DNA of 36,747 bases, from contig DAOUUW010000008.1 of assembly GCA_030667965.1 (NCBI GenBank), forward strand, positions 1 to 36,747. Direction: 5' to 3'. Below the pieces are notes generated by a model. It had not been told where the DNA came from. It worked only from the letters and a program-made list of their open reading frames with translations, and made no database searches. The stretch is from Deltaproteobacteria bacterium (GTDB lineage: Bacteria > Desulfobacterota > Desulfobulbia > Desulfobulbales > SURF-16). Positions 111 to 36,747 of the stretch are shown here, one piece after another. The translations under genes and the position numbers were made by a program. Positions within the stretch are counted from its first letter, which is position 1, and each line of letters begins with the position of its first letter.

Positions 111-245
111 TCAATGTCATCAACTTAAGCCACCTTTACAACCCCTCACCCCGGCCCTCTCCCCAAAGGGGCGAGGGAGAAAATCCCCTCTCCAGGGGGA
201 GAGGGTTGGGGTGAGGAAGAAAACGCCTTAAGTTAATGACATTGA
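111..245. mobile_element. MITE-like non-autonomous element, copy 1
   Basis: Terminal inverted repeats tcaatgtcatcaacttaag (111-129) and cttaagttaatgacattga (227-245), 18/19 complementary, flanked by direct repeats GTTGCTGC (103-110 and 246-253). No ORF of note; interior is a C-rich/G-rich palindrome. Confidence 0.85.
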
Positions 246-573: not shown

Positions 574-1278
574 TTATTTCAATGTCGCTATTTCCCTTAT
601 ACGCTCTATGATTATCGGCACCCTTGCCTGACTTGCTTCATCCCCTGGCATATGACCGGGAAGGGCCTCCAGAAAACGATCATTGCCAAGCAGGTTTCGG
701 AATCGGTCAGCCAGGTGATTCCGCAACTCGTCAGCCACCAATCGTATCTCGCTTACTACTTCGGGTCTTCCGTCCAAAATCGCCACGATATCTTCCATAT
801 CGTGACTCATCAAAAAATCATTATTTCCCCGGCCATCGAACGCCGCAAATTTGCAGGCCAGAAAATATGGCGCTGTAATCATGCGGATTTGTTTTCCGGA
901 TGGCAAGGTCAGGAGTGCTGCTTCTTCAAGGGCCTCCTGATACCAAGTGCTTCCAAAACCCAATAACGATGGATCCGTCGGCATTACATCCAACAGGATG
1001 TCACCCGCCTTCCAACGGCAAATCGGGGCATTCTCGCTGGAGTCTTCCCCGAAGCCCTGTTCACGCAGTCGTTTCGCTAAGCGATAATATTCCGCCATGG
1101 TCGCAACTTCGGTGATAACATCAACATCATGGGTGAAACGAATCGGCGGCGCGGCAACGTCGGTGAGCAACAGGCCAGTGGCACACCCTCCGAGGAAGAC
1201 CAGTCGCTCTACCAGATCACCTAGATACTGAACCGCAATCTCCAATATTTCAAGATTTGGGTTAGCAACTCGACGCAT
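574..1278 (-). CDS. Nucleotidyltransferase-fold protein, AbiEii/AbiGii toxin-like
   Basis: 234 aa ORF with FLGGCATGLLL ... FTHDVDVITE, i.e. the GG(x) and hDxDh motifs of the NTase fold; overlaps the upstream wHTH gene by 17 nt. Confidence 0.7.
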   Translation of the reverse strand: MRRVANPNLEILEIAVQYLGDLVERLVFLGGCATGLLLTDVAAPPIRFTHDVDVITEVATMAEYYRLAKRLREQGFGEDSSENAPICRWKAGDILLDVMPTDPSLLGFGSTWYQEALEEAALLTLPSGKQIRMITAPYFLACKFAAFDGRGNNDFLMSHDMEDIVAILDGRPEVVSEIRLVADELRNHLADRFRNLLGNDRFLEALPGHMPGDEASQARVPIIIERIREIATLK

Positions 1279-1792
1279 AGCTATCCAACCGTATTTTCAA
1301 TTCTTTTATTGCAGCCTCACGTTCCCTGGCCCTGCCGCACCGGATAGCATCCACCAAAGTCAGTAATTCATAGAACTTTTTATCTGTTCGTGCCGCCCTT
1401 GATGCCTGTTTATACAATGGCGTAAAAGACAGCCCCCGCACGTCTCCCTCTGGATCCGGCCAGACCGGTGGTGGCTCTTCAGCGGCAGCTACAAATTTTT
1501 TAACAAGCGGCGGAGCAGCATAGGCGGTTGGCACCCCCCTCGTCATATCGCCAGGCCTGGCCCAAAAGACATATTTGACACCATGAATAAGAAATTCCTC
1601 AAGGTTTCGATAGTGCGGCACGAGCCTGTCTCCCAGTTTAACGGCAAGCTGCGCATCCAGGGCACGCTTTACCGAGGCATGAAGCTGGGAGGGACTCATC
1701 TTCAACTCAACAGCCAACCCTGCATATGACCATTGACGTTTTCCAATGACCGCCAATTTAAGTATCGCAAAAATATCCTGTGGTTTTAGCAT
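1262..1792 (-). CDS. Winged-helix/HTH protein, putative antitoxin or regulator partner of the NTase
   Basis: 176 aa ORF; N-terminal segment YAGLAVELKMSPSQLHASVKRALDAQLAV looks like a helix-turn-helix; overlaps the downstream NTase gene, upstream position as in AbiE-type pairs. Confidence 0.6.
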   Translation of the reverse strand: MLKPQDIFAILKLAVIGKRQWSYAGLAVELKMSPSQLHASVKRALDAQLAVKLGDRLVPHYRNLEEFLIHGVKYVFWARPGDMTRGVPTAYAAPPLVKKFVAAAEEPPPVWPDPEGDVRGLSFTPLYKQASRAARTDKKFYELLTLVDAIRCGRAREREAAIKELKIRLDSYASSC

Positions 1793-1801
1793 AATCGTGT
1801 T

Positions 1802-1853
1802 CCTTATTCTAGATTCCAGAATAGAGAATAAGGCAAGCCAAATAAAAAATCAA
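1802..1853 (-). promoter_or_regulatory. Putative sigma70 promoter with overlapping inverted-repeat operator upstream of the wHTH gene
   Basis: Minus strand TTGATT (1848-1853) - 17 nt - TATTCT (1825-1830); inverted repeat ccttattct (1802-1810)/agaataagg (1825-1833) covers the -10 and initiation region just before the ATG at 1792. Confidence 0.45.
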
Positions 1854-1976: not shown

Positions 1977-2104
1977 TCAATGTCATTAACTTAAGCTATC
2001 AATTTATTTTTCCCCTCACCTAAATCCTCCCGGAGTCTCTCTCCGGTCGCTTACCTCCCAAAGGGGCGAGGATTTTAAAGGATGGCTTAAGTTAATGACA
2101 TTGA
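1977..2104. mobile_element. MITE-like non-autonomous element, copy 2
   Basis: Perfect 19-bp TIRs tcaatgtcattaacttaag (1977-1995)/cttaagttaatgacattga (2086-2104), flanked by direct repeats CTACCAAA (1969-1976 and 2105-2112). Confidence 0.88.
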
Positions 2105-2157: not shown

Positions 2158-3000
2158 TTACGGCAGGTATTGCGACAAAAAACCATCCAGGCCATCCGTG
2201 TAGGAATTGCCTGTTACAAGAAAGCCTTCATTATGGCCGCCGCAGAGTTCGAGGAAATGCTTGGGGTCTTTGGCCGATGCGTAGAGTTTTTGGCCATGGG
2301 TGAAAGGGATGATCTCGTCGTCCGGGCTGTGGACTACAAGGAGCGGGCAAGAGATAGACTGGAGATTTTTTCTGACATTGAAATGCAAACGACTCAGCAT
2401 TCTGACGGGCAGGAAGGGATAGAGTTGGGCGCCGATATCCGGTACGGATGTGAAACACGATTCAAGAATCAGGGCAGCAGGGTTGGTCATGGTGGCCAGC
2501 TGTGCGGCCACGGCGCCACCGAGTGAGCGTCCGAACAGGACAATATTCTCCGGTGGAATACCGCGTTTTTGCGTCAGGTAATGCCAGGCGGCATCGGCGT
2601 CCTGATAAAGTCCGGACTCGGAAGGTTTACCCTGGCTGCGGCCATAGCCCCGGTAATCGAAAATCAGGGTGCTGAGTCCCAGCTTATTGAACACCTGCAG
2701 GGATTCAAGGCGGTGGGAGATGTTGCCGGCATTGCCGTGGCAGAAAAGGACAACGCCTCGCGCCCGGTCTGCCGGGACGAACCAGGCATCAAGACGAATG
2801 CCGTCTTTGGTTTCAAGCTGCACAGATTCATAGTCAAGCCCCACCTCGGCCGGTGTCACACGTACGGATCGACTGGGGATATTGGGTAGAAACAGCAGAT
2901 GGGGTTGATAGAGGTAAACAAAAACAAGGAGCGCCCCATAGCCCACTGCAATCAGCAGCAGAATATTTGCAAAACCGTTCATCGACATTTGGGCTCGCAT
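2158..3000 (-). CDS. Alpha/beta hydrolase (BEM46/ABHD13-like) with N-terminal membrane segment
   Basis: FCHGNAGN, GRSLGG (GxSxG nucleophile elbow), C-terminal HSPDDEIIPF and GGHNEG (Asp/His); hydrophobic N-terminus. Confidence 0.85.
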   Translation of the reverse strand: MRAQMSMNGFANILLLIAVGYGALLVFVYLYQPHLLFLPNIPSRSVRVTPAEVGLDYESVQLETKDGIRLDAWFVPADRARGVVLFCHGNAGNISHRLESLQVFNKLGLSTLIFDYRGYGRSQGKPSESGLYQDADAAWHYLTQKRGIPPENIVLFGRSLGGAVAAQLATMTNPAALILESCFTSVPDIGAQLYPFLPVRMLSRLHFNVRKNLQSISCPLLVVHSPDDEIIPFTHGQKLYASAKDPKHFLELCGGHNEGFLVTGNSYTDGLDGFLSQYLP

Positions 3001-20872: not shown

Positions 20873-21073
20873 TTAACGTTTCCTTACATTAGCTGCGGCA
20901 GGTCCTTTTTGACCATCTACAATATCAAAAACTACAGCCTGGCCCTCACCCAAGGTCTTAAAGCCTTCCTCTTCAATTGCTGAAAAATGCACAAACACAT
21001 CATCGCCATCTTCGCGTTCAATAAAACCAAAACCCTTTGACTCATTAAACCACTTAACTTTTCCTTCTACCAT
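20873..21073 (-). CDS. Cold-shock protein, CspA family
   Basis: [32 protein letters not shown]; 66 aa. Confidence 0.96.
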
Positions 21074-21251
21074 CTTGCTGCTCCTTCATTCCCTTCAGGA
21101 ATACTTAAAAAAATAAAAAAATTACATATTTCGCAGGTTAGAATAATAAATTTACCCTAAAAAACGTAAATCCTACAAAAAATGTAAATGTACTGACTTT
21201 AGCTAATACCAAAAGAATTAGACCAAAGCAAGAAACTTTTACTATTTCCAT

Positions 21252-21283
21252 AAAAAAACCCGGAACACGTTATATGTCCCAGG
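21252..21283 (-). terminator. Terminator of the ribosomal superoperon
   Basis: Minus strand cctgggaca-tataacg-tgttccggg (9 bp with two G-U pairs), then ttttttt, downstream of rplQ. Confidence 0.75.
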
Positions 21284-21315
21284 TAAAAATAACTCAAAAA
21301 TGAAAAACTAATTTT

Positions 21316-21702
21316 TTAGTTGCCGGCGTTATTTCCTGATTCAGCCTGATAATTTACAAGCTCAATAATGGCCATTGGTGCGGCATCCCCGATCCTGTTA
21401 CCGGTCTGAATAATACGAGTATAGCCACCATTCCTGTCCATATATTCGTTGCTCAGCTTATCAAAAAGCTTATCAACAACTCTTTTGTCACGAATAAAGG
21501 AAAGAGCCTGACGTCTTGCGTGCAAATCACCACGCTTGCCAAGAGAAATCATTTTATCAGCAACTTTACGAAGTTCTTTTGCTTTCGGAGTTGTGGTAAC
21601 TATTCTCTCATGCTCAAGTAAAGAAGTAACCATATTACGCATCAAAGCCTTACGATGTGCAGTGGTGCGACCAAGTCTTCTTCCTGTTTTTCTATGCCTC
21701 AT
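21316..21702 (-). CDS. rplQ: 50S ribosomal protein L17
   Basis: [37 protein letters not shown]. Confidence 0.98.
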
Positions 21703-22768
21703 TGTTTAACCTCACATCATCCTGATCATCAGCGATAGATGATTCAGGTGGTTCCCAATTATCTATTTTCATACCAAGTGAAAGATCCATCACTGAAAGA
21801 AGCTGCTTAATTTCATTGAGTGATTTTCTGCCAAAATTCTTTGTTTTAAGCATTTCGGCTTCTGTTTTCTGTACTAGTTCACCGATAAAACATATTTGAG
21901 CATTACGCAGGCAATTAGCAGAACGAACAGAGAGCTCCAAATCTTCAACACTTCGAGATAAACCTGGATTAACCTCATTATCATCAAAATCATCTTTCTT
22001 TTCTACAATTTGAGGTTCAACCTGTTTTTCATCAAAATTGATAAAAACATTCATCTGCTCTTTCTGGATTTTAGCTGCATATGCAAGCGCATCTTCAGGC
22101 TTTACGCTCCCGTCGGTATGTATTTCCATGGTCAGCTTATCATAGTCGGTACGCTGACCTATACGGGATTGGCTGACAATTGTTTTGACTTTTTTTATCG
22201 GTGTAAAAATAGCATCTACAGGGATAACACCAACAGCCTGGTCTTCATGTTTATTTTTTTCTGCAGGAGAATAGCCCTTGCCCCATTTTACCTCAAACTC
22301 GGCAACAAACTGACCATCACCACTTATTGTACAGATATGTTTATCAGGATTCATAACCTCAACAAAAGCACCTGTAATTATATCAGCAGCAGTAACCGAA
22401 CCTTTCTCTCTCTTCTCAATCTTGACAATAGCTGTTTCATCATGAAAAAGCTTTAAGCGTACTTCTTTTAAATTCAATATGATTTCAGTCACATCTTCCA
22501 ATATACCCGGAAGTGTGGAGAACTCGTGCAATGCACCGTCTATTTTAACGGCAGTAATCGCAGCGCCCTGTACAGAAGAAAGAAGTATTCGCCTCAATCC
22601 ATTGCCAATGGTGGTTGCAAAACCCCGTTCTAGTGGCTGGCATATAAATTTACCATAGCTCTCAGTATGGGTATGCTTGTCAACTTCTAAAGGATTAGCT
22701 ACAATAAGATCGCGCCAATTACGATAAAATGGAGTAGATTCCTGAATCAGGATTTCCTCATTTGTCAT
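21692..22768 (-). CDS. rpoA: RNA polymerase alpha subunit
   Basis: [28 protein letters not shown]-terminal [47 protein letters not shown]. Confidence 0.98.
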
Positions 22769-22819
22769 TATAATTCTCTTGGTCTATTTCCAAATAGTCA
22801 AAGGGAGTAACATTAACCA

Positions 22820-23449
22820 TTACTTGGAATAAAGTTCGACAATAAGCTGTTCCTGGATCGGCATGGTAATATCCTGCCTTTCAGGCATGGCTTTAGCTTT
22901 ACCACTAAAGTTGGTTTGATCAAGTTCAAGCCAGTTAGGAATCCCACGGCGGGCAACAGCTTCAAGGCTGTCAGTAATTGCTTCAATCTTACGACTTTTT
23001 TCTCGGATGGAAATAACATCATTCACAGAAACAAAAAATGAAGGTATATTTACTTTTTTACCGTTTATCAGAACATGGCTATGCTTTACAAGTTGCCTGC
23101 CCTGTGTCCTTGAGGACGCAAAACCCAACCTGAAAACTACATTATCAAGCCTTCTTTCGAGCAGAACAAGGAGATTTTCACCTGCTACGCCTTTTGCTCT
23201 CTCAGCCTGCTCAAAGTACCTTCTAAATTGGCCCTCAAGCATGCCGTAAGCACGGCGCACTTTCTGCTTTTCTCTCAACTGAATAGAGTAATCAGATTCC
23301 TTCCTCATCCTGGCCTGCCCATGCTGCCCAGGAGGAAATGCCCTTCTTTCAAAAGCGCATTTATCAGAATAACACCTGTCTCCTTTCAGAAACAATTTAA
23401 TTTTTTCTCTGCGGCATTGCCTGCAGACCGCTCCTCTATATCTTGCCAA
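22820..23449 (-). CDS. rpsD: 30S ribosomal protein S4 (zinc-binding, C+ form)
   Basis: [65 protein letters not shown]. Confidence 0.97.
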
Positions 23450-23511
23450 TGTATCCCTCCGTTATTACATGTTCAATAACGTTTCGGTCATAAAATTTCT
23501 AATTACGCTGC

Positions 23512-23904
23512 TTATACTCTTCTTCTCTTGGGAGGCTTACAGCCATTATGAGGAACAGGGGTAACATCACAGATCCTGCTCACTTCAAAACCGACCGATT
23601 GTAAAGTACGAATCGCAGATTCCCTGCCGGGACCTGGGCCCTTTACCTTAACCTCTACTTTACGCATACCATGTTCCATTGCAACCTTCGCAGCAGTCTC
23701 TACAGCATTCTGTGCGGCAAAAGGAGTACTTTTTCTAGAACCTTTAAAACCCAAAACTCCGGAACTAGACCACGATATAACATTGCCCTGCTTATCAGAA
23801 ATGGTAATCAGGGTATTATTAAAAGTAGATTTTATATGAACAATACCTTCCGGTACATTCTTTTTTTCTTTACGCTTAGTGGTACGTTTCTTCGGACTAG
23901 CCAT
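23512..23904 (-). CDS. rpsK: 30S ribosomal protein S11
   Basis: [43 protein letters not shown]. Confidence 0.98.
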
Positions 23905-23947
23905 GTATTTCTCCTGTTCAAGTCCTTTTTAATGCAGACAAAAAAAA

Positions 23948-24316
23948 TTATTTTTTACGTGAACCTGGTGTACGTCGAGGACCTTTTCTTGTCCTGGCAT
24001 TTGTTTTTGTCCTCTGGCCTCTGGCAGGAAGACTACGGCGATGTCTGATTCCACGATAGCAACCTAAATCCATCAGGCGCTTAATATCCATTGCTACTTC
24101 ACGCCTCCTATCACCCTCTACAGGGTAATCAGCGTCAATAATTTGTCGTATAGTAACTGCATCTTCATCAGTAAGAGAATCACTATTCATCGTACGTGAT
24201 AATCCTGCCTGATCAAGAATCTTTTTTGATGTTGTACGGCCTATACCATGAATATAGGTAAGGGCTATTTCCATGTGTTTATTTTTGGGTAAATCTATGC
24301 CTGCAATACGAGCCAA
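23948..24316 (-). CDS. rpsM: 30S ribosomal protein S13
   Basis: [51 protein letters not shown]. Confidence 0.98.
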
Positions 24317-24343
24317 GGGGCTACCTCCCGATTATCTTTCCGG

Positions 24344-24457
24344 CTATCCCTGCCGTTGTTTATGTTTTTTAACCTTGCATGCAACACGGACAACCCCTTT
24401 GCGCTTATATACTTTGCAATCGCTGCACATTTTTTTAACTGATGCACGTACTTTCAT
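24344..24457 (-). CDS. rpmJ: 50S ribosomal protein L36 (C+ form)
   Basis: My own translation of the minus strand: [37 protein letters not shown]; below the ORF-track length cutoff. Confidence 0.96.
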
Positions 24458-24472
24458 ATTTTATCCTTGCTG

Positions 24473-24706
24473 TTAATTCTTTTTTTGATTCCGGGACCTG
24501 AACGTAACTCTACCTCGAGTCAAATCGTAGGGTGAAAGCTCAATAGTAACTCTGTCACCAGGCAATATTTTTATGAAATGCATACGCATTTTACCGGAAA
24601 TATGTGCCAACACCTTATGTCCATTGTCAAGCTCCACACGAAACATTGCATTGGGCAAAGGTTCGATTATTGTCCCTTCTACAGAAATGGCTTCTTCTTT
24701 AGCCAT
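24473..24706 (-). CDS. infA: Translation initiation factor IF-1
   Basis: [69 protein letters not shown]. Confidence 0.97.
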
Positions 24707-24823
24707 AAAAATAATTCCTTATCAAGCAGGTAAAACTGATTCTCTTATAATCGATTCATAAAAAAAACAATTTATTATCATAACATATTTTATACGAATT
24801 TCAAAATTAAAATATCTAAAAAA

Positions 24824-25591
24824 TTAACTTTCTGTGCCGTAACTCAATATTAAAGGACCATCTTCGGTTACAGCAACAGAATGCTCAAAATGCGCAGAAA
24901 GGCTTTTGTCACTGGTTACTACAGTCCATCCATCACGCAGAACCTTTACTTCATAGCCTCCGGCATTAACCATCGGCTCAATGGCAATAACCATACCGGG
25001 CAGAAGTTTAGCTGATCTCTCATTCCGATTATAATTTGGCACCTCAGGTGGTTCATGCAGAGATTGACCAATGCCGTGTCCTACAAATTGACGAACAACA
25101 GAATAACCAGCCTGCTCAACATAATTTTGAACAGCCTGTGAAATATCAGATACCCTATTGCCAACCCTAACCTGTTCAATGCCATTGAACAGAGATCCAC
25201 GGGTAACGTTCAAAAGTTTTTCAGCGGCAGAATCAATTTTGCCGACAGGAAGTGTTACAGCTGCATCTCCAAAGAAACCTTTATATTTTACGCCAAAATC
25301 AATACTGAGAATATCACCTTCTTTTAAAACAACCTTTTTAGAAGGAATACCATGAACAACTTGTTCATTTAATGACACACAGAGACTTCCAGGAAACCCT
25401 CTATACCCTTTAAAAGCAGGAACAGAGCCTTTACTGCGAGCAAATTTTTCAGCTAATTTATCTAATTCTAAAGTTGTAACTCCGGGTTTTATATAATCCC
25501 TGAGCATAGATAGCGTCTGTGCCACTATCTGATTTGCCTCCTTCATAATCACAATCTGTGAAGGAGACTTTAAAATAATTACTGAAGCCAT
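24824..25591 (-). CDS. map: Methionine aminopeptidase, type I
   Basis: FPGSLCVSLNEQVVHGIPS, LSIDFGVKYKGFFGDAAVT, FVGHGIGQSLHEPPEVPNY, GMVIAIEPM. Confidence 0.97.
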   Translation of the reverse strand: MASVIILKSPSQIVIMKEANQIVAQTLSMLRDYIKPGVTTLELDKLAEKFARSKGSVPAFKGYRGFPGSLCVSLNEQVVHGIPSKKVVLKEGDILSIDFGVKYKGFFGDAAVTLPVGKIDSAAEKLLNVTRGSLFNGIEQVRVGNRVSDISQAVQNYVEQAGYSVVRQFVGHGIGQSLHEPPEVPNYNRNERSAKLLPGMVIAIEPMVNAGGYEVKVLRDGWTVVTSDKSLSAHFEHSVAVTEDGPLILSYGTES

Positions 25592-25604
25592 AAGAATTCC
25601 GGAT

Positions 25605-26915
25605 TTACCGTCTGCCCTTAATACGTCCTGTCTTTAAAAAACCGTCATAATTGCGTGAAATTGAATGCGACTCTATTTGTGAAAGAGTATCAATAGCAAC
25701 ACCCACAACAATCAACAAGGCTGTACCGCCAAAATAAAAGGGAACATTCAACTGGTCTATTAATATCGTCGGCAGCACACAGACAAGACTGACATAAATA
25801 GCACCAATAACAGTTAAACGGGTGATAACTTTATCAATAAATTCAGCGGTGCGTTTACCCGGTCGAACACCAGGGATAAAGCCACCGTTCTTTTTTAAAT
25901 TCTCTGATACATCTACCGGGTTAAAAGTGACTGCAGTATAAAAAAAGCAGAAAAAGACAATCATTCCAACAAAGAGCAGCGTATGAAGAGGACTTCCCCA
26001 AGCCAACAAAGATGAAGCTCGCTGTATCCAGTCAACCTGAATAAACCCGCCAATCGTTGCCGGAAACATCATAATAGAGGATGCAAAAATCGGCGGAATA
26101 ACACCGGATATATTTATCTTAAGAGGGAGATGGGATCTCTGCCCGCCATACATCTGACGTCCAACCATCCGCTTTGCATACTGTATGGGGATTCTGCGCT
26201 GGGCTGTCTCAAAAAATATAATAATACCTATTACACCGACCATCATGACAAGCAAAATCGGCAGAAAAATCAAAGTCATCTCACCGGTGCTGAACATCTT
26301 AAATGTATTAACAATGGCAGCCGGTAATCTGGCAACAATACCTGCAAAAATAATCAATGATATTCCATTGCCTATACCCCGTTCCGTCACCTGCTCACCA
26401 AGCCACATTAAAAAGGCGGTACCCGAGGTCAGAGTCAAAATGGTCATAAGCCTGAAAGCCCAACCGGGATCTATGACAATCATTTCATTTCCGACAGGAG
26501 CAGCCATGCCTTCAAGCCCGATACTAATCATCGTAGACTGAATAATACTAAGGCCGACAGTGGCATACCGGGTGTATTGGGTAATCTTTCTCCGTCCGGC
26601 TTCACCCTCTTTTTTCAATGCCTCAAGATGCGGAACAACCACAGTCAAAAGCTGAAAAATAATCGATGCGCTGATATAGGGCATAATTCCAAGGGCAAAA
26701 ATAGAAAAATTTTCTAAAGCGCCACCGGAGAACATGTTAAACATGCCAAAAAGCGTGCCTGCATTTTTTTCAAAAAAGGCTGCAAGAGCCTCTCCATTAA
26801 TCCCAGTGGTGGGGATCTGCACACCTGCACGATATACTGCAAGCATGAAAAGCGTAAACGTTATACGTTTTCTCAGCTCAGGTACAGTTGCAACACTTTG
26901 TAAAGCACCTGCCAT
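25605..26915 (-). CDS. secY: Protein translocase subunit SecY
   Basis: [83 protein letters not shown]. Confidence 0.98.
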
Positions 26916-26929
26916 TGAATTACCCCTGT

Positions 26930-27367
26930 CTATTCGATGGTTCCGCCCGCGCTCTCAATTTTACGGCGGGCACCATCGCTGACTTTATCTACTGCAACAA
27001 TAAATTTTTTAGATATATCCCCATCTCCAAGGATTTTAACGAAAGAATCCTTGGCTTTTATAAGCCCTGCATTTATCAATGCGTCGCGGTCAACTCTACT
27101 GTCACTTTCGAGTTTCTCAAGATCCCTGACATTAACAATTGCAAATTCCTTACGAAAAATATTATTAAATCCACGCTTGGGCAACCTGCGTTGCAGAGGC
27201 ATCTGACCGCCTTCAAATCCCGGTTTAATTCCACTACCGGAACGAGCCTTGAAACCCTTATGACCACGACCTGAAGTTTTACCATGACCTGAACCATGGC
27301 CTCTACCGAGACGTTTTTTCTGCTTACGTGCACCCTTTTGAGGGGATAGATTTGATAATGAAAGCAT
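26930..27367 (-). CDS. rplO: 50S ribosomal protein L15
   Basis: [41 protein letters not shown]. Confidence 0.97.
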
Positions 27368-27549
27368 TATATCTCCTCCACAGCAACAAGATGTTGGACC
27401 TTATTGATCATTCCCCGAATTTCAGGAGTATCTTTACGAACAATTATTTTGCTCGTTTTAGTAAGACCCAATCCCGTAACAGTAGCTCGAATCTTCTCTG
27501 TGCTGCCTATCACGCTTTTTGTTAATATAATTTTAAGCTCTTTTGCCAT
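27367..27549 (-). CDS. rpmD: 50S ribosomal protein L30
   Basis: [55 protein letters not shown]. Confidence 0.95.
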
Positions 27550-27652
27550 GACCATACCTGTTAAAAACCTGTTACCAATAAATCAGGAACAGGTTTTGAC
27601 AATTTATTTATGTAAAATGTGTTTTGTTAATTCAATGGAGGAGGTAGAAGCA

Positions 27653-28159
27653 TTAAACCAGAATCTCTTCGACTGTCATTCCCCTCTGTGCGGCAATCTT
27701 CTCAACACTACGTAATCTCCGCAGTCCATCCATTGTCGCCTTGACAAGATTATGGGGGTTATGCGAACCAAGACATTTAGTGAGTATATTCTGCACTCCT
27801 GCGGCCTCAAGTACAGCACGAACAGCTCCACCGGCAATAACACCTGTACCGGCGGATGCAGGCTTCAGCATTACCTTGCCGGCTCCATACTTACCGTCAA
27901 TTTCATGGGGTATACTCACATCAGTAATGGAAACAGGCTTCATGTCTTTTCTTGCTCTTTCAACACCTTTACGGATAGCTTCCGGAACCTGATTGGCTTT
28001 ACCCAATCCATATCCAACACTACCATTTCCATCGCCCACAACAACGATTGCACTAAAGCTGAACCTTCGACCACCCTTGACAACCTTAGCAACCCTGTTG
28101 ATAAAAACAATCTTTTCGATAAGTTGATCATCCATCTTATCGTTTTTGAAATCAGCCAA
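27653..28159 (-). CDS. rpsE: 30S ribosomal protein S5
   Basis: [51 protein letters not shown]. Confidence 0.98.
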
Positions 28160-28221
28160 CTTGAACCCCCAAATAATGCGTATAGTTTAAATGGAAAATG
28201 CTATACAAGTCATAAATAAAT

Positions 28222-28587
28222 CTAAAAGCGCAGACCACCTTCGCGCGCACCGTCAGATAAAGCCTTTACTCGTCCATGATAAATATAACCACCCCTATCA
28301 AAGACAACTTTCTCCAAACCATGGGCTTTCATTTTTTCAGCGAGTAATTTACCGACCTGACGTGCCTGCTCTTTTTTACTGTTACCTTCCGCATCACTAA
28401 AGGCCTTATCACAGGTAGACATAGAGCAGAGCGTGTGTCCGGCTACATCGTCGATAACCTGTGCATAAATATGTTTGGCACTTTTAAATACACGAAGTCG
28501 GGGCACTTCTTGAGTCCCGGAAATTTTTTTTCTTATTCTTTTAACACGTTTGTTACGTGCAACTACCTTTGGATTTGTTTTCGACAT
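28222..28587 (-). CDS. rplR: 50S ribosomal protein L18
   Basis: [60 protein letters not shown]. Confidence 0.97.
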
Positions 28588-28619
28588 TATCGTGACCTGA
28601 TTAATTCGAGATTACTCTG

Positions 28620-29156
28620 TTACTTGGAAGCAGTTTTTCCTGCTTTCCTTACAATATGTTCACCTTCATACCTGATTCCTTTTCCTTTATAGGGTTCAGG
28701 TTTTCTGATCGAACGAATCTTCGCAGCCGTCTGACCGACAAGTTCCTTGTCAATGGACTCAAGAGAAATGGTCGATTTGTCTACTGTCCCTGCAACACCT
28801 TCGGGCAAGGTAAAAACAACGGGATTTGAAAATCCCACATTCAGGGTTAAAACATTATTTTTCATATCAGACTTATAACCCACTCCTTCAATAACAAGCT
28901 TCTTGGTAAACATCTTTTCCGTACCAATTATCATATTATTAACCAGAGTGCGGGTAAGGCCGCTGAAGGCACGAGTACGTTTGCTGTTGTCAAGGCATTT
29001 CACCGTAATGACACCATCAGACTGAACCAGTTCGATCTCCGGACGAATAATACGTTCAAGAGATCCCTTTGGGCCGTCTACTTTTACATGTGTACCATTA
29101 ATATCTACTTTAACCCCAGCAGGCACATTGATGGGTTGATTGCCTATCCTCGACAT
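28620..29156 (-). CDS. rplF: 50S ribosomal protein L6
   Basis: MSRIGNQPINVPAGVKVDINGTHVKVDGPKGSL; EPYKGKGIRYEGEHIVRKAGK. Confidence 0.98.
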   Translation of the reverse strand: MSRIGNQPINVPAGVKVDINGTHVKVDGPKGSLERIIRPEIELVQSDGVITVKCLDNSKRTRAFSGLTRTLVNNMIIGTEKMFTKKLVIEGVGYKSDMKNNVLTLNVGFSNPVVFTLPEGVAGTVDKSTISLESIDKELVGQTAAKIRSIRKPEPYKGKGIRYEGEHIVRKAGKTASK

Positions 29157-29251
29157 TGGGTATCTCCAATTTATCGTACTAACGTTACTTACTTAATTAT
29201 ATAAACCGTGGAGTGGGTAGCGTACTGCACAAAACATTAAGGCGCAGGAAA

Positions 29252-29650
29252 TTACCATACATTACAAAGAATTTCTCCACCGACTCCGTTCTTCCTGGCT
29301 TCTCTGTCAGTAAGAATTCCTGAGGAAGTTGAAAGAATGGCAATTCCGAGTCCGCTCATAACCTTTGGAATCTTATCGGATTTAAGATAAACACGACAAC
29401 CGGGCTTACTTACTCTTTTCAGTCCGGTGATAACACAGTTATTATGCTTATCATATTTGAGACCGATTTTGAGAATTCCCTGCTTATCATCTGCAAGAAC
29501 TTCCACATCCGACACATATCCCTCTTGTTTGAGTATATCAGCTACATTCTTTTTAAATTTAGAATGCGGCATCTCCAGAGAGTCAAATTTTACCAAACGT
29601 GCATTTCTAATTCTGGTCAGCATATCTGCCAGAGGATCACTCATAGACAT
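29252..29650 (-). CDS. rpsH: 30S ribosomal protein S8
   Basis: [50 protein letters not shown]. Confidence 0.98.
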
Positions 29651-29692
29651 AAAAATACTCCTTTTGCATCCAATACAAATGAGAATTAAATT

Positions 29693-29878
29693 TTACCAGC
29701 TTGACTTTGTTACGCCGGTTATCTCACCGCGAGACGCAAGGGTTCTAAAGCAAATCCGGCAAATCCCGAACTTACGAATAAAAGCGCGTGGTCTTCCACA
29801 AAGCGGACATCGATTATAAGCACGAACCTTGAATTTAGGCGTACGCTCACTTTTTGATATTAAGGATTTCTTAGCCAA
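29693..29878 (-). CDS. rpsN: 30S ribosomal protein S14 (zinc-binding type)
   Basis: [61 protein letters not shown]. Confidence 0.97.
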
Positions 29879-29898
29879 CCTCTTCCTCCTGGACAGTA

Positions 29899-30438
29899 CT
29901 ATTTACGAAAAGGCATTCCTAATGTACGTAAGAGAAAACGTCCCTCTTCATCAGTCTTTGCATTGGTGGTAATAGTGATATTAAAACCTTTAATCTTATC
30001 GATTTTGTCGTAATCAATTTCAGGGAAAATAATATGTTCCTGAATACCCATGGAAAAATTACCCCTACCGTCAAAACCTGTTGCTTTCACTCCCCTGAAG
30101 TCACGAACCCTGGGCAGAGCGATATGGACGAGCTTACTATAAAAATCATACATCATTTCATGACGCAGCGTAACGCGGCAGCCAATGGGCATACCTTCGC
30201 GCAACTTGAAGCTGGCAATGGATTTCTTTGCCTTGGTGACAACTGATTTCTGCCCGGCAATCATGGTCATCTCATTAGATGCACCCTCAACAATTTTCGG
30301 ATTTTGAACAGCTTCACCAAGTCCCATGTTAAGAACAATTTTCTCAATCTTGGGAACCTGCATAATATTCTTATACCCAAACTCCTTCATGAGCTTAGGT
30401 ATACATTCTTTTTTGTAGTACTCTTGCAAACTGGACAT
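29899..30438 (-). CDS. rplE: 50S ribosomal protein L5
   Basis: [39 protein letters not shown]; start at 30438 preferred because GGAGGC precedes it. Confidence 0.97.
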
Positions 30439-30459
30439 TCTAGCCTCCAATGAAACAAA

Positions 30460-30795
30460 CTATACGTTTGCCTCTATTGATTCACCACACTTCTTACATA
30501 CACGAGACTTACTGCCGTCATCCAAAATTGATGTCTTAATCCGGACGGCTTTAGCGCATTTTGAACAAATAAGCATCAAATTGGAAACATGTATTGGAGC
30601 TTCCATATCAATAATTCCACCTTGCTGATTATTCATATTGGGCTTCATATGGCGCTTTACAATATTTATTTTTTCAACTTTCGCTTTATTTAATGCGGGA
30701 AATATTTTGGTAATCTTGCCTACACGCCCTTTGTCTTTACCGGCAATAACCTCAACCTTATCATTGAGCTTGAGATAATTTTTTCCTACAGCCAT
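30460..30795 (-). CDS. rplX: 50S ribosomal protein L24
   Basis: KLNDKVEVIAGKDKGRVGKITKIFPALNKAKVEKINIVKRHMKPNMNNQQGGIIDMEAPIHVSN; CxxC...CxxC tail. Confidence 0.97.
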   Translation of the reverse strand: MAVGKNYLKLNDKVEVIAGKDKGRVGKITKIFPALNKAKVEKINIVKRHMKPNMNNQQGGIIDMEAPIHVSNLMLICSKCAKAVRIKTSILDDGSKSRVCKKCGESIEANV

Positions 30796-30869
30796 CAGTC
30801 AATCCCCACTACTTATTTCTTTTTTAAAGGTCAATCATTATATTCGTTAAGCCGGCAACTCGTCGGCAT

Positions 30870-31238
30870 CTAAAGTACTTCAGGTGCAAGAGATACTATT
30901 TTCATATAACCATGAGCACGAAGTTCGCGTGCAACAGGACCAAATATCCTGGTTCCCATTGGTTCGCCGGATGCGGTAAGAAGCACTGCTGAATTTTCAT
31001 CAAATTTAACGGAAGTATCATCTTCACGCCTTAATTTGTATGCTGTGCGAACTATTACAGCTCGCATGACATCACCTTTTTTCACCTTTGCATTCGGCAT
31101 TGCCTCTTTAACGGTGACAACTATCACGTCTCCGACCCTGGCATATCTTTTCTTTGTACCTCCAAGAACTCGAATACAAAGTACCTTCTTTGCTCCAGAA
31201 TTATCTGCCACATTAAGGACGGTTTCTGTCTGTATCAT
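30870..31238 (-). CDS. rplN: 50S ribosomal protein L14
   Basis: [74 protein letters not shown]-track start 31310 is too far upstream. Confidence 0.97.
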
Positions 31239-31335
31239 ATCTTCACCATCAACCCGGTACAAACCGGATATTACAGTATAAAAATTACCTGAACTCCTAA
31301 ATAACAACACATAAAAGGAGCTTCATTTAATAAAA

Positions 31336-31596
31336 TTAAACGGCTTGTTCAAGAATTGAACGTAATCTCCACCGTTTACTTTTACTCAACGGACGACATT
31401 CCTCAATAAGTACCTTGTCTCCAATTTTACAGAGATTCTGAGGATCATCTGCCATATATTTGACTTGCCGGCGAATATATTTACCATAGAATTTATGGGG
31501 GATTAAACGCTCGGTGAGGACAACAACACTTTTTTCCATTTTATCGCTTGTTACAACGCCGATTCTGGTCTTCTTGTTTGCTTTATTTTCAGACAT
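31336..31596 (-). CDS. rpsQ: 30S ribosomal protein S17
   Basis: [57 protein letters not shown]. Confidence 0.96.
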
Positions 31597-31653
31597 CTGT
31601 ATTTCCCACAAATATGATCACATACGACCATGTATCATTAAGTATCTTTTTTA

Positions 31654-31845
31654 TTACGCCCTGAGTTTCTCAGTCATGACGGTCTTGCACCTGGAGATAT
31701 CTTTTTTCAGCTCATGCAATCTGGAGGTATTCTCAAGGGGCCTGATACCGTGCTGAAAACGCAATTTATTCAATTCTTCAGCAAGATCAACTGATTTCGA
31801 CTGCAAATCCTCAACACTCATCTCACGCATATCTTTGGCAATCAT
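31654..31845 (-). CDS. rpmC: 50S ribosomal protein L29
   Basis: [57 protein letters not shown]. Confidence 0.96.
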
Positions 31846-32258
31846 AATGTTGTACTCTTTGTAATTACTTTCGTTTGAAAAGGAAGTTTGTTGCCGGCCA
31901 GAGTCAATGCTTTTATAGCAAGACTTTCTTCAACACCGGTTATTTCATAGAGAATTCTGCCGGGCTTAATGGGGGCGACCCAAGAGTCAGGACTGCCTTT
32001 TCCCTTACCCATTCTAGTTTCCGCCGGCTTTTTGGTAACTGGTTTGTCCGGGAAAACACGAATCCACATCTTGCCGCCACGCTTCACAGTTCGACTGATT
32101 GTAATACGGGCAGCTTCTATCTGCTGGGCTGTCATTTTGCCACACTGAGTTGCCTTTAAGGCATAATCACCAAATGATATTGATGAACCGCGTAAAGCTT
32201 TACCTTTCATGCGGCCCTTCATCTGTTTTCTATGTTTAACTTTTTTCGGACTAAGCAT
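31842..32258 (-). CDS. rplP: 50S ribosomal protein L16
   Basis: [59 protein letters not shown]. Confidence 0.98.
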
Positions 32259-32362
32259 TAAATTTTACCCTAATCAATATCAAGCACAACAGTACTCGGC
32301 TTGAACTTATTACAATATAAAAACAAGGCGTATCCAAGAACCTTGTTAAAATAGATGGTATA

Positions 32363-33010
32363 CTATTCCAAAAGCTGTTCTGCCTCAGACAACACTTCAC
32401 CCTTGAAAATCCACACCTTTACACCGATAATACCGTATGTGGTCTTTGCCTCAGCAAAGCCGTAATCAATATCAGCTCTCAATGTGTGAAGAGGAACCCG
32501 TCCTTCACGGTACCACTCGCGTCGTGCCATCTCAGCACCGCCTAATCTACCGGAGCAGGCTATCTTAATACCTTTTGCACCGAACTTCAAGGCGATATTA
32601 ACAGACTTTTTCATTGCCCGTCGAAATGCAATACGTCTTTCCAGCTGCAGGGCAACATTTTCTGCGACAAGCTGTGCATCGGCTTCAGGTCGTCTAACTT
32701 CCTGAATATCGACAACACATCTCTTGTTTGTGAGCTTATCAAGTTCTTTTTTAAGCCCCTCTATTTCCGCCCCTTTCTTTCCTATAACAATACCAGGCCT
32801 AGCTGTATGAAGTTTTAATTTCAGCTTTTCACCGGTACGGGCGATATTAATTTTTGAAAGTCCCGCATGATACAGTCTTTTTTTCAAAAATTTTCTGATC
32901 TTTTGATCTTCAATTAAATTTTTCGAATAATCACGGTCTGCATACCAGGTTGACTCCCAGGAACGAACAATATTAAGGCGCAAACCTATTGGATTAACTT
33001 TCTGGCCCAA
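32363..33010 (-). CDS. rpsC: 30S ribosomal protein S3
   Basis: [76 protein letters not shown]. Confidence 0.98.
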
Positions 33011-33088
33011 AACCTTCCTCCATCACAAAAACATTTTTGTATTGAACAGCCTTATCAGGATAAATACTTAACAAACAAATTTAATGAA

Positions 33089-33421
33089 TCAAATCTCATC
33101 TAACACGACGGTTATATGGCTGGATCTCTTCAGAATCCTTGAAGCCCTGCCCATTGCCCTCGGACGTATACGCTTCAGCATGGAGCCACCGTCAACATAC
33201 ACCTTTTTAACATACAAGGTATCAACATCTATCGATTCGTTCTGGCTTGCATTTGCCACGGCGGACTCTACAACCTTACGAAGAATCCGTGCACCTTTTT
33301 TCGGCATAAAACGCAAATTATTGAGCGCTTCCTCTACCTGCCGGCCACGAATTATATCTGCAATCAGCCGTGCCTTCTGCGGTGAAATCCTTATATTTCT
33401 AACAACTGCCTTCGCTTCCAT
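33089..33421 (-). CDS. rplV: 50S ribosomal protein L22
   Basis: [58 protein letters not shown]. Confidence 0.97.
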
Positions 33422-33455
33422 TGCTTACTGACTCCTTTTCAGGTGAAAAGTATTC

Positions 33456-33731
33456 TTACTTTTTGCCCTTTCTGTCACCGGAATGGCTGTAAAAAGTACG
33501 CGTGGGGGAAAATTCACCCAACTTGTGACCAACCATGTTTTCCGTAACAAAGACAGGAATGAATTTTTTCCCATTATGTACGGCAAAGGTAAGACCAACC
33601 ATCTCAGGCAGTATGTCTGATCTGCGAGACCAGGTTTTTATAACCTTTCTTGAGCCGCTTTCCTTTGCGTTTTCAACTTTTTGCAACAAATGATCATCAA
33701 CAAACGGACCTTTTTTTATTGAACGTCCCAC
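33456..33731 (-). CDS. rpsS: 30S ribosomal protein S19
   Basis: [70 protein letters not shown]. Confidence 0.98.
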
Positions 33732-33746
33732 GTTATTTCCCCCTCA

Positions 33747-34571
33747 CTACGACCTTTTCTTGACGATATCTTTATCCGATTGCTTACGCCGTCTCGTCTT
33801 AAATCCTTTAGTCGGTACGCCCCAAGGAGTACATGGATGACGACCACCTGAACTCTTCCCTTCACCACCACCCATCGGATGGTCTACCGGGTTCATAGCT
33901 ACACCGCGAACTTTCGGTCTTTTCCCTTTCCATCTATTACGGCCGGCTTTGCCAATTTTCTGACTGTCATGTTCGACATTACCAATCTGACCAATGCACG
34001 CCCTACACTTACAATGAAAACGCCGCACCTCACCGGAAGGCAATTTCACCAGAACATTGTCCCCTTCCTTAGCCATCAACTGAGCAGAAACACCGGCACT
34101 GCGAACCAACTGAGCACCTTTGCCGATTCTCATTTCAACATTATGAATAATGCTGCCCAGAGGAATATTGGCCATTGGAAGGCAATTGCCTATTTTAATA
34201 TCAACAGTTTCCCCTGTCTCTACTACGTCACCAACCTTAATGCCGAGAGGAGAAAGAATATATCTCTTTTCCCCATCTGCATAAAAAAGTAGAGCGATAT
34301 TTGCTGATCGATTCGGATCATATTCTATTGAAGAGACCTTCGCTGGAATATTTTCCTTATTTCTTTTAAAATCAATAACCCTATACTTCCGTTTATGGCC
34401 ACCACCTATATGCCTGGCAGTAATACGGCCATTATTATTACGGCCGCCGGATTTTCGAAGCGGTTCAACCAGACTTTTTTCAGGTCTGGATTTAGACAGT
34501 TCCGGGTTCACTATTGAAACATAGTTCCTTCGACCCGGCGATGTCGGTTTATAGGTCTTCATTGTTGCCAT
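33747..34571 (-). CDS. rplB: 50S ribosomal protein L2
   Basis: [74 protein letters not shown]. Confidence 0.98.
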
Positions 34572-34614
34572 TTCTTACCCCGAATATTTAGTTATACGAT
34601 AAATAAAATGCAGG

Positions 34615-34905
34615 TTACAGCTCTTCAAGAAAATCAATTTTATGTCCTTCGGCAAGCTGAACTACAGCTTTCTTCCAATCAGAACGCCGGCCGATACGAG
34701 CACCGACTCTTTTCTTCTTACCGTGCATGTTCGCAGTGCGAACCTTGTCAACCTTGACATTAAACAGGTGCTCAACAGCAGATTTTATCTGTATTTTATT
34801 TGCCTTGGAATGCACTTTCATAACTATCTGATTATGCTCTTCCTGCAGAAACATACCTTTTTCAGTAAGGCATGGTTTCTTTATGACATTATATATATCA
34901 ATCAT
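34615..34905 (-). CDS. rplW: 50S ribosomal protein L23
   Basis: IYNVIKKPCLTEKGMFLQEEHNQIVMKVHSKANKIQIKSAVEHLFNVKVDKVRTANMHGKKKRVG. Confidence 0.97.
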   Translation of the reverse strand: MIDIYNVIKKPCLTEKGMFLQEEHNQIVMKVHSKANKIQIKSAVEHLFNVKVDKVRTANMHGKKKRVGARIGRRSDWKKAVVQLAEGHKIDFLEEL

Positions 34906-35525
34906 GAAAGCAACCTCTCTTCAAGCTGGCCGATGCAAGGCTGGAGAAGGATGATATTCTTGTGCAGAAGAATGTCATACACATTAACACCTTCAGTTGT
35001 CATAACCTTGTAGCCGCTAACGTTTCTTAATGACTTTTCCAAATTCTCATTCTGCCCGGGTATTACAATAAGTGCATTATCTATATTAAGCGTACCCATG
35101 ACATTGATAAAATTTTTGGTCTTGATTTCATCCATTTCAAAATTGTCAAGTACAAGCAGGCGCTCTTCAGACAAACGAGCGCTCAATGCCATTTTAAGGC
35201 CTAATTTTTTAACTTTTTTGGGCAGTTTAAACGCATAGCTGCGAGGTTTTGGTCCGAATACTGTACCGCCACCACGCCATATAGGAGATTTACGAGTCCC
35301 AGTTCGTGCGCGGCCCGTACCTTTCTGTCGCCAGGGTTTTGCGCCGCTACCACGAACTTCCCCCCTTGTCTTTGTGCAGGCATTACCAGACCGACGACTT
35401 GCCCGTTGCATCCTGACAATATCATGCAAAACATAAAGTTTTACATCAACAGCGAAAAGCGAGTCATTAAGTTCAATTTCCCCGACTTTTTCATTTTTAA
35501 TATTTAATATGCCTGTTACAGCCAT
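34902..35525 (-). CDS. rplD: 50S ribosomal protein L4
   Basis: [64 protein letters not shown]. Confidence 0.98.
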
Positions 35526-35546
35526 TTTTCGGCACCTCTCAGATCT

Positions 35547-36176
35547 TTACTTAGTGAAAAACTGCAACAACCCTTTATTTGTACCGGGCAAAGACCCTTT
35601 CAGTACAATAACATTCTGTTCACTGCGAACATCAAGAATTATCACATTCTTTTTGGTGATGAGATTGTTTCCCATCCGACCAGGCATCTTTTTCCCTTTA
35701 ACAACCTTACTCGGTGTTGCACTACAGCCAATTGACCCAGGGGCACGATGAAACATTGATCCATGTGTTTTGCCACCGCCACTAAAGCCATGTCGTTTAA
35801 TAACACCCTGGAATCCGCAACCTTTAACTTTGCCACTAACATCAACAATGTCACCAACTTTAAAGAGATCGCCAGCGACAATTTCCTGACCAATCTCATA
35901 CTGGTCAGGATCTTTAACGCGAAACTCCTTTATATGATAAAAACAACCCTTACCGGCGCTTTTAAAATGTCCGATCATCGGTTTATTCTCGCGGGACTCT
36001 TTCTTTGTCCCATAACCGACCTGTATGGCATTATACCCTTCTTTTGCTTCAGTTTTTTTCTGAAGAACAACACAGGGACCCGCCTCAACAACAGTGGCGC
36101 CAATAGCAACACCATCCTCAGTATAGATGCGTGTCATGCCGATTTTTTGTCCTAAAATACCAATTGCCTTAGGCAT
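35547..36176 (-). CDS. rplC: 50S ribosomal protein L3
   Basis: ILGQKIGMTRIYTEDG; GKVKGCGFQGVIKRHGFSGGGKTHGSMFHRAPGSIGCSATPSKVVKGKKMPGRMG. Confidence 0.98.
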   Translation of the reverse strand: MPKAIGILGQKIGMTRIYTEDGVAIGATVVEAGPCVVLQKKTEAKEGYNAIQVGYGTKKESRENKPMIGHFKSAGKGCFYHIKEFRVKDPDQYEIGQEIVAGDLFKVGDIVDVSGKVKGCGFQGVIKRHGFSGGGKTHGSMFHRAPGSIGCSATPSKVVKGKKMPGRMGNNLITKKNVIILDVRSEQNVIVLKGSLPGTNKGLLQFFTK

Positions 36177-36274
36177 AGCTTCTGTCCTAGTTATGTTTAA
36201 ATCATACGCTCTTCGTGTCTGATTTTATTTGTCGTAATGTCTACCACAAAGCATCATTACTACAACTTGATTTA

Positions 36275-36586
36275 CTACAACTTGATTTCTACATCCACAC
36301 CGGCTGAAAGCTCAAGCTTCATCAGAGCATCAATGGTCTGTTGAGTCGGCTCAAGAATATCAAGCAACCTGCGGTGTGTTCTCATCTCAAAAGCTTCACG
36401 TGATTTTTTATCCACATGCGGTGAGCGAAGAACACAATATTTATTTATTGAAGTAGGAAGCGGAATCGGTCCGGCAATAATTGACCCGGTCCTCTTAGCA
36501 GTATCAACTATTTCATGGGTAGACTGATCTAAAAGCTTATGATCGTACCCTTTCAACCTGATACGAATTTTCTGTGTCTGAATCAT
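36275..36586 (-). CDS. rpsJ: 30S ribosomal protein S10
   Basis: [76 protein letters not shown]. Confidence 0.98.
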
Positions 36587-36596
36587 GCTCGTATCC

Positions 36597-36747
36597 TTAT
36601 TCTATAATTTCGTTAACAACACCGGCACCGACAGTACGGCCACCTTCGCGAATTGCAAAACGAAGGCCGACTTCCATGGCGATTGGTGTAATAAGAGAAC
36701 CTTCTATCGTTACGTTATCCCCGGGCATTACCATCTCTACGCCTTCA
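36597..36747 (-). CDS. tuf: Elongation factor Tu, C-terminal part (truncated by window edge)
   Basis: My own minus-strand translation: [49 protein letters not shown]. Confidence 0.96.

Follow-up and report, generated by a model that had tools for sequence, protein, structure and literature searches.

A conserved, probably self-regulated wHTH-nucleotidyltransferase gene pair resembling AbiE and MenAT toxin-antitoxin modules, with a predicted antitoxin of a distinct family

In AbiE type IV toxin-antitoxin systems, a gene for a wHTH protein precedes and overlaps the gene for an AbiEii-superfamily nucleotidyltransferase (NTase), and the NTase motifs have been defined as I (hG[G/S]), II (R...DhD), III (KLxAaxxR), and IV (+DxxD) (PMC3985639). 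The MenT1 toxin of Mycobacterium tuberculosis has the catalytic residues T39, D41, K137, and D152 (PMC11375011) and adds cytidines to tRNA 3' ends (PMC10435456). A third point of reference is PDC-M21, a two-protein entry in PADLOC; the PDCs are unvalidated candidates that came out of a guilt-by-embedding screen (PMC12988326), and no paper naming PDC-M21 was found in the open-access literature. Here we describe a wHTH-NTase gene pair in a stretch of 36,747 nucleotides (the window). The window corresponds to contig C66 in a draft genome of 3.06 Mb that holds a single copy of the NTase gene.

An initial annotation of this DNA had proposed two overlapping open reading frames of 176 and 234 aa that share 17 nt. 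Both are present (Table 1), on the minus strand, which had been left unstated; the wHTH gene comes first, the overlap spans 1262-1278, and the NTase translation contains FLGGCATGLLLTDVAAPPIRFTHDVDVI, as quoted in that annotation. The PADLOC profile PDC-M21A matched the wHTH protein (E = 5.4e-43, residues 18 to 169), and PDC-M21B matched the NTase (E = 8.7e-67, residues 1 to 232). These matches, all four AbiEii motifs, and an operator-like palindrome support the earlier proposal of a candidate toxin-antitoxin or defense module, and the AbiE-like layout that had been pointed out, with a wHTH gene upstream of and overlapping an NTase gene with motifs I to IV, holds. The nearest homologues of the pair are in Desulfobulbaceae.

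Table 1. Positions of the gene pair and neighboring features in the window
Feature	Position	Strand	Basis or remark
wHTH protein gene (PDC-M21A), 176 aa	1262-1792	minus	ORF and PADLOC profile match
NTase gene (PDC-M21B), AbiEii/MenT-type nucleotidyltransferase, 234 aa	574-1278	minus	ORF and PADLOC profile match
Imperfect palindrome CCTTATTCTCTATTC-TG-GAATCTAGAATAAGG, candidate operator	1802-1833		Ends ~10 nt before wHTH start codon
Alpha/beta hydrolase gene, intact, upstream of pair	2158-3000	minus	3' end is repeat copy 2143-2273
Degenerate copy of hydrolase 3' end (~38 codons)	about 421-555	minus	Repeat and protein identity
MITE-like inverted-repeat element	111-245		8-bp direct repeats GTTGCTGC at 103-110 and 246-253
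Second MITE-like element	1977-2104		Own 8-bp direct repeats CTACCAAA at 1969-1976 and 2105-2112

The pairing of the two genes is obligate. Among 80 genome loci from Desulfobacterota, Acidobacteriota, Pseudomonadota, Myxococcota, Calditrichota, Cloacimonadota, and other phyla, the wHTH gene lies directly upstream of the NTase gene in 77, and the 3 exceptions are cut by contig ends; it is present at every locus with upstream room (77/77). The neighborhood survey that the initial annotation had called for found the partner in 136 loci overall, that is, beside 136 of 141 NTase segments, some of the genes being split into two frame-shifted pieces. Those that appeared unpaired were rejected as such: L036, L055, and L059 are contig-end truncations, and L038 and L160 are each the second part of an interrupted frame, the first part of which has its partner. 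In the Desulfobacterota, the same 9 genomes carry both strong matches (9/9). The junction between the two genes has a median of -4 nt, with an overlap in 112 of 130 cases. Among the outcomes that the annotation had named as speaking against a module were homologues occurring mostly apart and loss of catalytic residues. Homologues were paired wherever the upstream sequence sufficed, and the only catalytic-residue change among 130 NTases was a single D97N, D97 being kept in the other 129. Because homologues occur in the same order in many phyla and D51, D53, K143, D160, and D163 are invariant in the 130 NTases, this is not a chance pair of open reading frames.

Of the genomes sampled, strong matches occurred in about 29 of 369 for the class to which a Legionella locus belongs, in about 10 of 199 for the phylum that includes an Acidobacteriaceae locus, and in 9 of 297 for the phylum of the window. 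Corynebacterium glutamicum, a nonpathogenic species included as a control genome, also matched both PADLOC profiles. Relatives occur on 115 plasmid records, including an 8.2-kb Acinetobacter plasmid. Phage records and viral contigs searched with the NTase and wHTH alignments yielded no relatives. Locus L111 (G244:C44) encodes a wHTH protein that matches M21A in part; the stretch examined around it contains no NTase gene, and the locus may be an orphan or a remnant.

The NTase carries motif I as G30G31, motif II as R47-x-T49-x-D51-x-D53, with the AbiEii-specific arginine 4 residues ahead of the first aspartate, motif III as K143-x-x-A146-F147-x-x-R150, and motif IV as H159-D160-x-x-D163, where H replaces K/R. 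Besides the five residues named above, G30, G31, R47, T49, and A146 are invariant among the 130 homologues. Pfam and NCBIfam searches returned nothing significant for either window protein; the Pfam family AbiEii (PF08843) matched 7 of 15 homologous NTases, with a best E value of 3e-7. When the NTase family was compared with an AbiEii-like NTase family by hhalign, the result was 98%. The loci with weak M21B matches (L010, L011, and L013 to L015) were used solely in this profile comparison; they were rejected as family members, as theirs is a separate AbiEii-like family whose upstream gene is larger in most cases. In a Foldseek search with the AF2 model of the NTase (pLDDT 93), MenT1 chains (8an5, 8rr5, and 8an4) occupied ranks 1 to 4 with E values of 3.9e-6 to 1.1e-4, followed by a Helicobacter pylori NTase and TglT (Rv1045). 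The global likeness to MenT1 is moderate (TM 0.51 by query and 0.63 by target), and T49, D51, K143, and D160 correspond to T39, D41, K137, and D152 of MenT1. By analogy with that toxin, the window NTase would add nucleotides to tRNA 3' ends. A serine or threonine two residues before the first aspartate is, as far as is known, general in AbiEii-type motif II, so T49 by itself does not show that the NTase is phosphorylated.

The wHTH protein (AF2 model, pLDDT 95) consists of an N-terminal winged helix (about residues 1 to 60) and a conserved C-terminal domain. No full-length structural match was found; similarity to solved proteins is confined to the winged helix. The conserved columns are D6, G86, T89, W111, P125, D148, R151, and R156, of which those from G86 on belong to the C-terminal part. 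The AbiEi family was not matched by the window protein at an E value of ≤1 or by any of 15 homologues, in agreement with the earlier description of a short partner without an AbiEi domain; the Pfam family MarR_2 was matched by 3 of the 15. The structural comparison proposed in the initial annotation thus succeeded for the NTase, which lies nearest MenT1, and, together with the Pfam searches, gave no AbiEi or MenA relationship for its partner. Since no such relationship was found, the antitoxin family appears distinct, though the layout and the NTase are AbiE/MenAT-like. The wHTH protein is predicted to be both antitoxin and autorepressor. Because its C-terminal domain matches no known antitoxin, we infer rather than read from homology that this domain neutralizes the NTase.

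The candidate operator in the window is a variant of a family palindrome, ATTCNNGA-N-TCNNGAAT, that is found just ahead of the wHTH start across phyla. Regions upstream of 128 homologous wHTH genes were compared with upstream regions taken as controls from the same loci (n = 300). A palindrome that outscored 20 of 20 shuffles occurred in 59% of the wHTH regions and 8.7% of the controls, a palindrome score of ≥9 in 50% and 4%, and the motif ATTCNN(N)GA-N0-2-TC(N)NNGAAT (the ATTCNNGA-N-TCNNGAAT type) in 42/128 and 1/300; these counts are not independent, as the rows are related, and the motif nonetheless spans several phyla. The palindrome centers concentrate 20 to 30 nt ahead of the wHTH start. 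This conserved position before the wHTH gene supports autorepression, in which the wHTH protein would repress its own operon through the candidate operator. A sigma-70 promoter scan gave no match centered on the palindrome. In several relatives (e.g., L053, L064, and L048), the palindrome was seen by eye to be flanked by TTGCGC and TAGAAT, which could plausibly serve as -35 and -10 elements.

Some relatives carry a third gene that encodes a phosphatase. A gene for a calcineurin-like phosphoesterase abuts or overlaps the NTase 3' end at 15 distinct loci from Legionella and other gamma- and alphaproteobacteria (including L018, L057, L062, L068, L089, L094, L097, and L101). At 14 loci, mostly on proteobacterial plasmids, the gene at this position encodes a PP2C phosphatase (including L019, L021, and several of L125 to L137; in L125 it lies ~200 nt downstream). 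Both types were called with purpose-built HMMs, and Pfam confirmed representatives, several PP2C matches being weak. Two further plasmid loci have an annotated PP2C or Ser/Thr phosphatase, and one Geobacteraceae locus has a different calcineurin-like protein. In the NTase tree, which was built with FastTree only and has some long branches, one branch with a support of 91 separates the PP2C from the calcineurin-like types, and 0 of 500 shuffles were as clustered. No description of operons combining such an NTase with a PP2C phosphatase or a metallophosphoesterase was found in the open-access literature. The window locus has no phosphatase gene; downstream of the NTase gene there is nothing but a MITE-like element and the fragment of the hydrolase gene. 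That phosphatases of two unrelated folds are encoded next to the same NTase suggests that phosphorylation matters to the system. Phosphorylation as a shared switch would explain both: the NTase would be held off by wHTH-promoted phosphorylation of T49, and two lineages would independently have added unrelated phosphatases that reverse or tune it. In the two-gene form of the window, reversal of the modification would fall to phosphatases of the cell or to turnover of the antitoxin. We regard this scheme as tentative and rather unlikely.

The duplication and mobile-element scars noted earlier around the pair are real. A 131-bp repeat (421-551 and 2143-2273, 85% identical) copies the 3' end of the hydrolase gene, and the degenerate copy retains 79% identity over 39 residues (hydrolase residues 242 to 280). 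The location of the module between the intact gene and this copy indicates that it arrived by or with a duplication or replacement at the end of that gene. Two inverted-repeat elements also flank the pair. They belong to a MITE-like family with 19-bp inverted termini (TCAATGTCATTAACTTAAG), a length of about 128 to 135 bp, and 8-bp target repeats; the termini have 39 matches genome-wide (≤2 mismatches), often 109 bp apart, versus 0 for a reversed control pattern. Each element has separate 8-bp direct repeats, so the two inserted independently, and a composite transposon was rejected for the same reason. Since none of the other sampled genomes of the window's own family and order carries the pair, its acquisition here appears to have been recent. 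Elsewhere in the window (21000-36747), the G+C content is lower (0.37-0.45, down from about 0.46-0.54), and the GC skew stays negative throughout.

The analysis shows two genes that are obligately linked, an NTase whose active site is intact and whose predicted fold is MenT-like, and a palindrome that is conserved. On this basis, we consider it likely, at a probability of roughly 65%, that the two genes form one operon and encode an autoregulated AbiE/MenAT-like toxin-antitoxin module with a distinct antitoxin family. The module is real and conserved and is probably self-regulated. As the toxin, the NTase would add nucleotides to an essential RNA, most likely to tRNA 3' ends as MenT1 does, and once released it would stop translation. 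The wHTH gene overlaps the NTase gene from upstream and is translated first; its product would repress the operon by binding the palindrome and would hold the NTase inactive through its C-terminal domain, perhaps by way of phosphorylation of T49, which it would promote as MenA1 does that of T39 in MenT1. The NTase would become free once the wHTH protein is lost, as might happen when a plasmid is lost or a phage attacks, and the module may thereby serve plasmid maintenance or phage defense.

The same module could have defense as its main role, acting primarily in anti-phage abortive infection, in which a phage trigger would set the NTase free; this is also what the PDC label in PADLOC conveys. 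We judge this plausible, at somewhat below even odds. The pair is a PADLOC candidate from the guilt-by-embedding screen (PMC12988326), and AbiE can act both as a toxin-antitoxin system and in phage defense (PMC3985639). On a plasmid of Mitsuaria sp. 7 (L126, 211-7797), genes of a type I restriction system enclose the pair, with hsdM/hsdS on one side and a DEAD/DEAH-helicase (hsdR-like) gene on the other; in Acinetobacter haemolyticus, the pair sits beside BREX genes, and of the other relatives, one is downstream of a DNA methyltransferase gene and others are near other toxin-antitoxin or Abi genes. Against a primary defense role, no enrichment of defense genes over same-genome controls could be shown with PADLOC in 18 genomes (133 neighbor versus 135 control proteins and 85 versus 213 families, the controls being inflated by a CRISPR-Cas locus that they happened to include), and none of the genes immediately adjoining the pair in the window was recognized as a defense gene.

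It is also conceivable that the NTase is a regulatory protein-modifying enzyme that nucleotidylates the wHTH repressor or itself, which would make the pair a gene regulation switch and not a toxin-antitoxin module. Some NTases do modify partner proteins, as MNT does in HEPN-MNT, and obligate pairing and a candidate operator before the wHTH gene are compatible with such a switch. We consider it improbable: the closest fold is that of a tRNA-modifying toxin, MenT1, no conserved third target operon was seen in the two-gene form found in the window, and a patchy distribution with plasmid carriage better fits a mobile toxin-antitoxin module. That the pair is a functionless, decayed leftover of a mobile insertion might be read from the duplicated hydrolase end and the two MITE-like elements flanking it and from its absence in the genomes that were sampled from its family and order. 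Yet both frames are intact, the catalytic and family-invariant residues and the candidate operator are kept, and the MITE-like elements came in independently, which leaves decay very unlikely. An antibiotic-modifying NTase (ANT/Lnu-like) with its regulator is brought to mind by LnuA and ANT(2'') among the Foldseek matches, but these fall orders of magnitude below MenT1 in E value and the AbiEii-specific motifs III and IV are present; we give this explanation hardly any weight.

The pair itself was already listed, as PDC-M21; this analysis adds the candidate operator, statistics on motifs and co-occurrence across the family, and the variants that carry a phosphatase gene. If the toxin-antitoxin reading is correct, at least one additional, unrelated family of antitoxins partners AbiEii-type toxins; it sits under a conserved self-repressing operator and occurs across several phyla and on numerous plasmids. 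Active-site phosphorylation has so far been shown for M. tuberculosis MenT toxins, and the two phosphatase recruitments would allow a direct test of whether it is general in the toxin superfamily. The reading also provides a concrete first function to examine for an unvalidated candidate.

Compared with known systems, the window pair is a member of PDC-M21: adjacent, overlapping genes match its two profiles over nearly their full length, and PDC-M21 is itself an unpublished, unvalidated candidate. With HEPN-MNT, the pair shares a two-gene module with a small NTase, whereas its partner is a wHTH protein with no HEPN domain and its NTase is of the AbiEii/MenT type. The kinase-kinase-phosphatase defense module KKP has a phosphatase gene adjoining the toxic partner (PMC11341870), analogous to the PP2C-bearing relatives; here there is no kinase, and the window locus lacks the phosphatase. 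AbiE shares the leading wHTH gene, the overlapping NTase gene with motifs I to IV, and a palindrome before the operon, and where AbiE has a wHTH repressor acting on inverted repeats in its own promoter, the window has a conserved palindrome at the right place. It differs in that the 176-aa partner lacks the AbiEi C-terminal domain of the AbiE antitoxin, the NTase falls below Pfam AbiEii detection, and the spacing between motifs I and II is x19, versus x15 in AbiE. In AbiE, the NTase toxicity is neutralized with no complex being formed. MenAT1 offers the nearest solved structure, and the predicted NTase fold is MenT type with invariant equivalents of its catalytic T/S, D, K, and D; MenA1, in contrast, is a small SymE-like two-helix protein, and MenA3/4 antitoxins are of COG5340, while the partner here is a wHTH protein with another C-terminal domain. 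As far as sequence and predicted structure go, the mechanism is AbiE/MenAT-like; by its antitoxin, the module is a member of neither.
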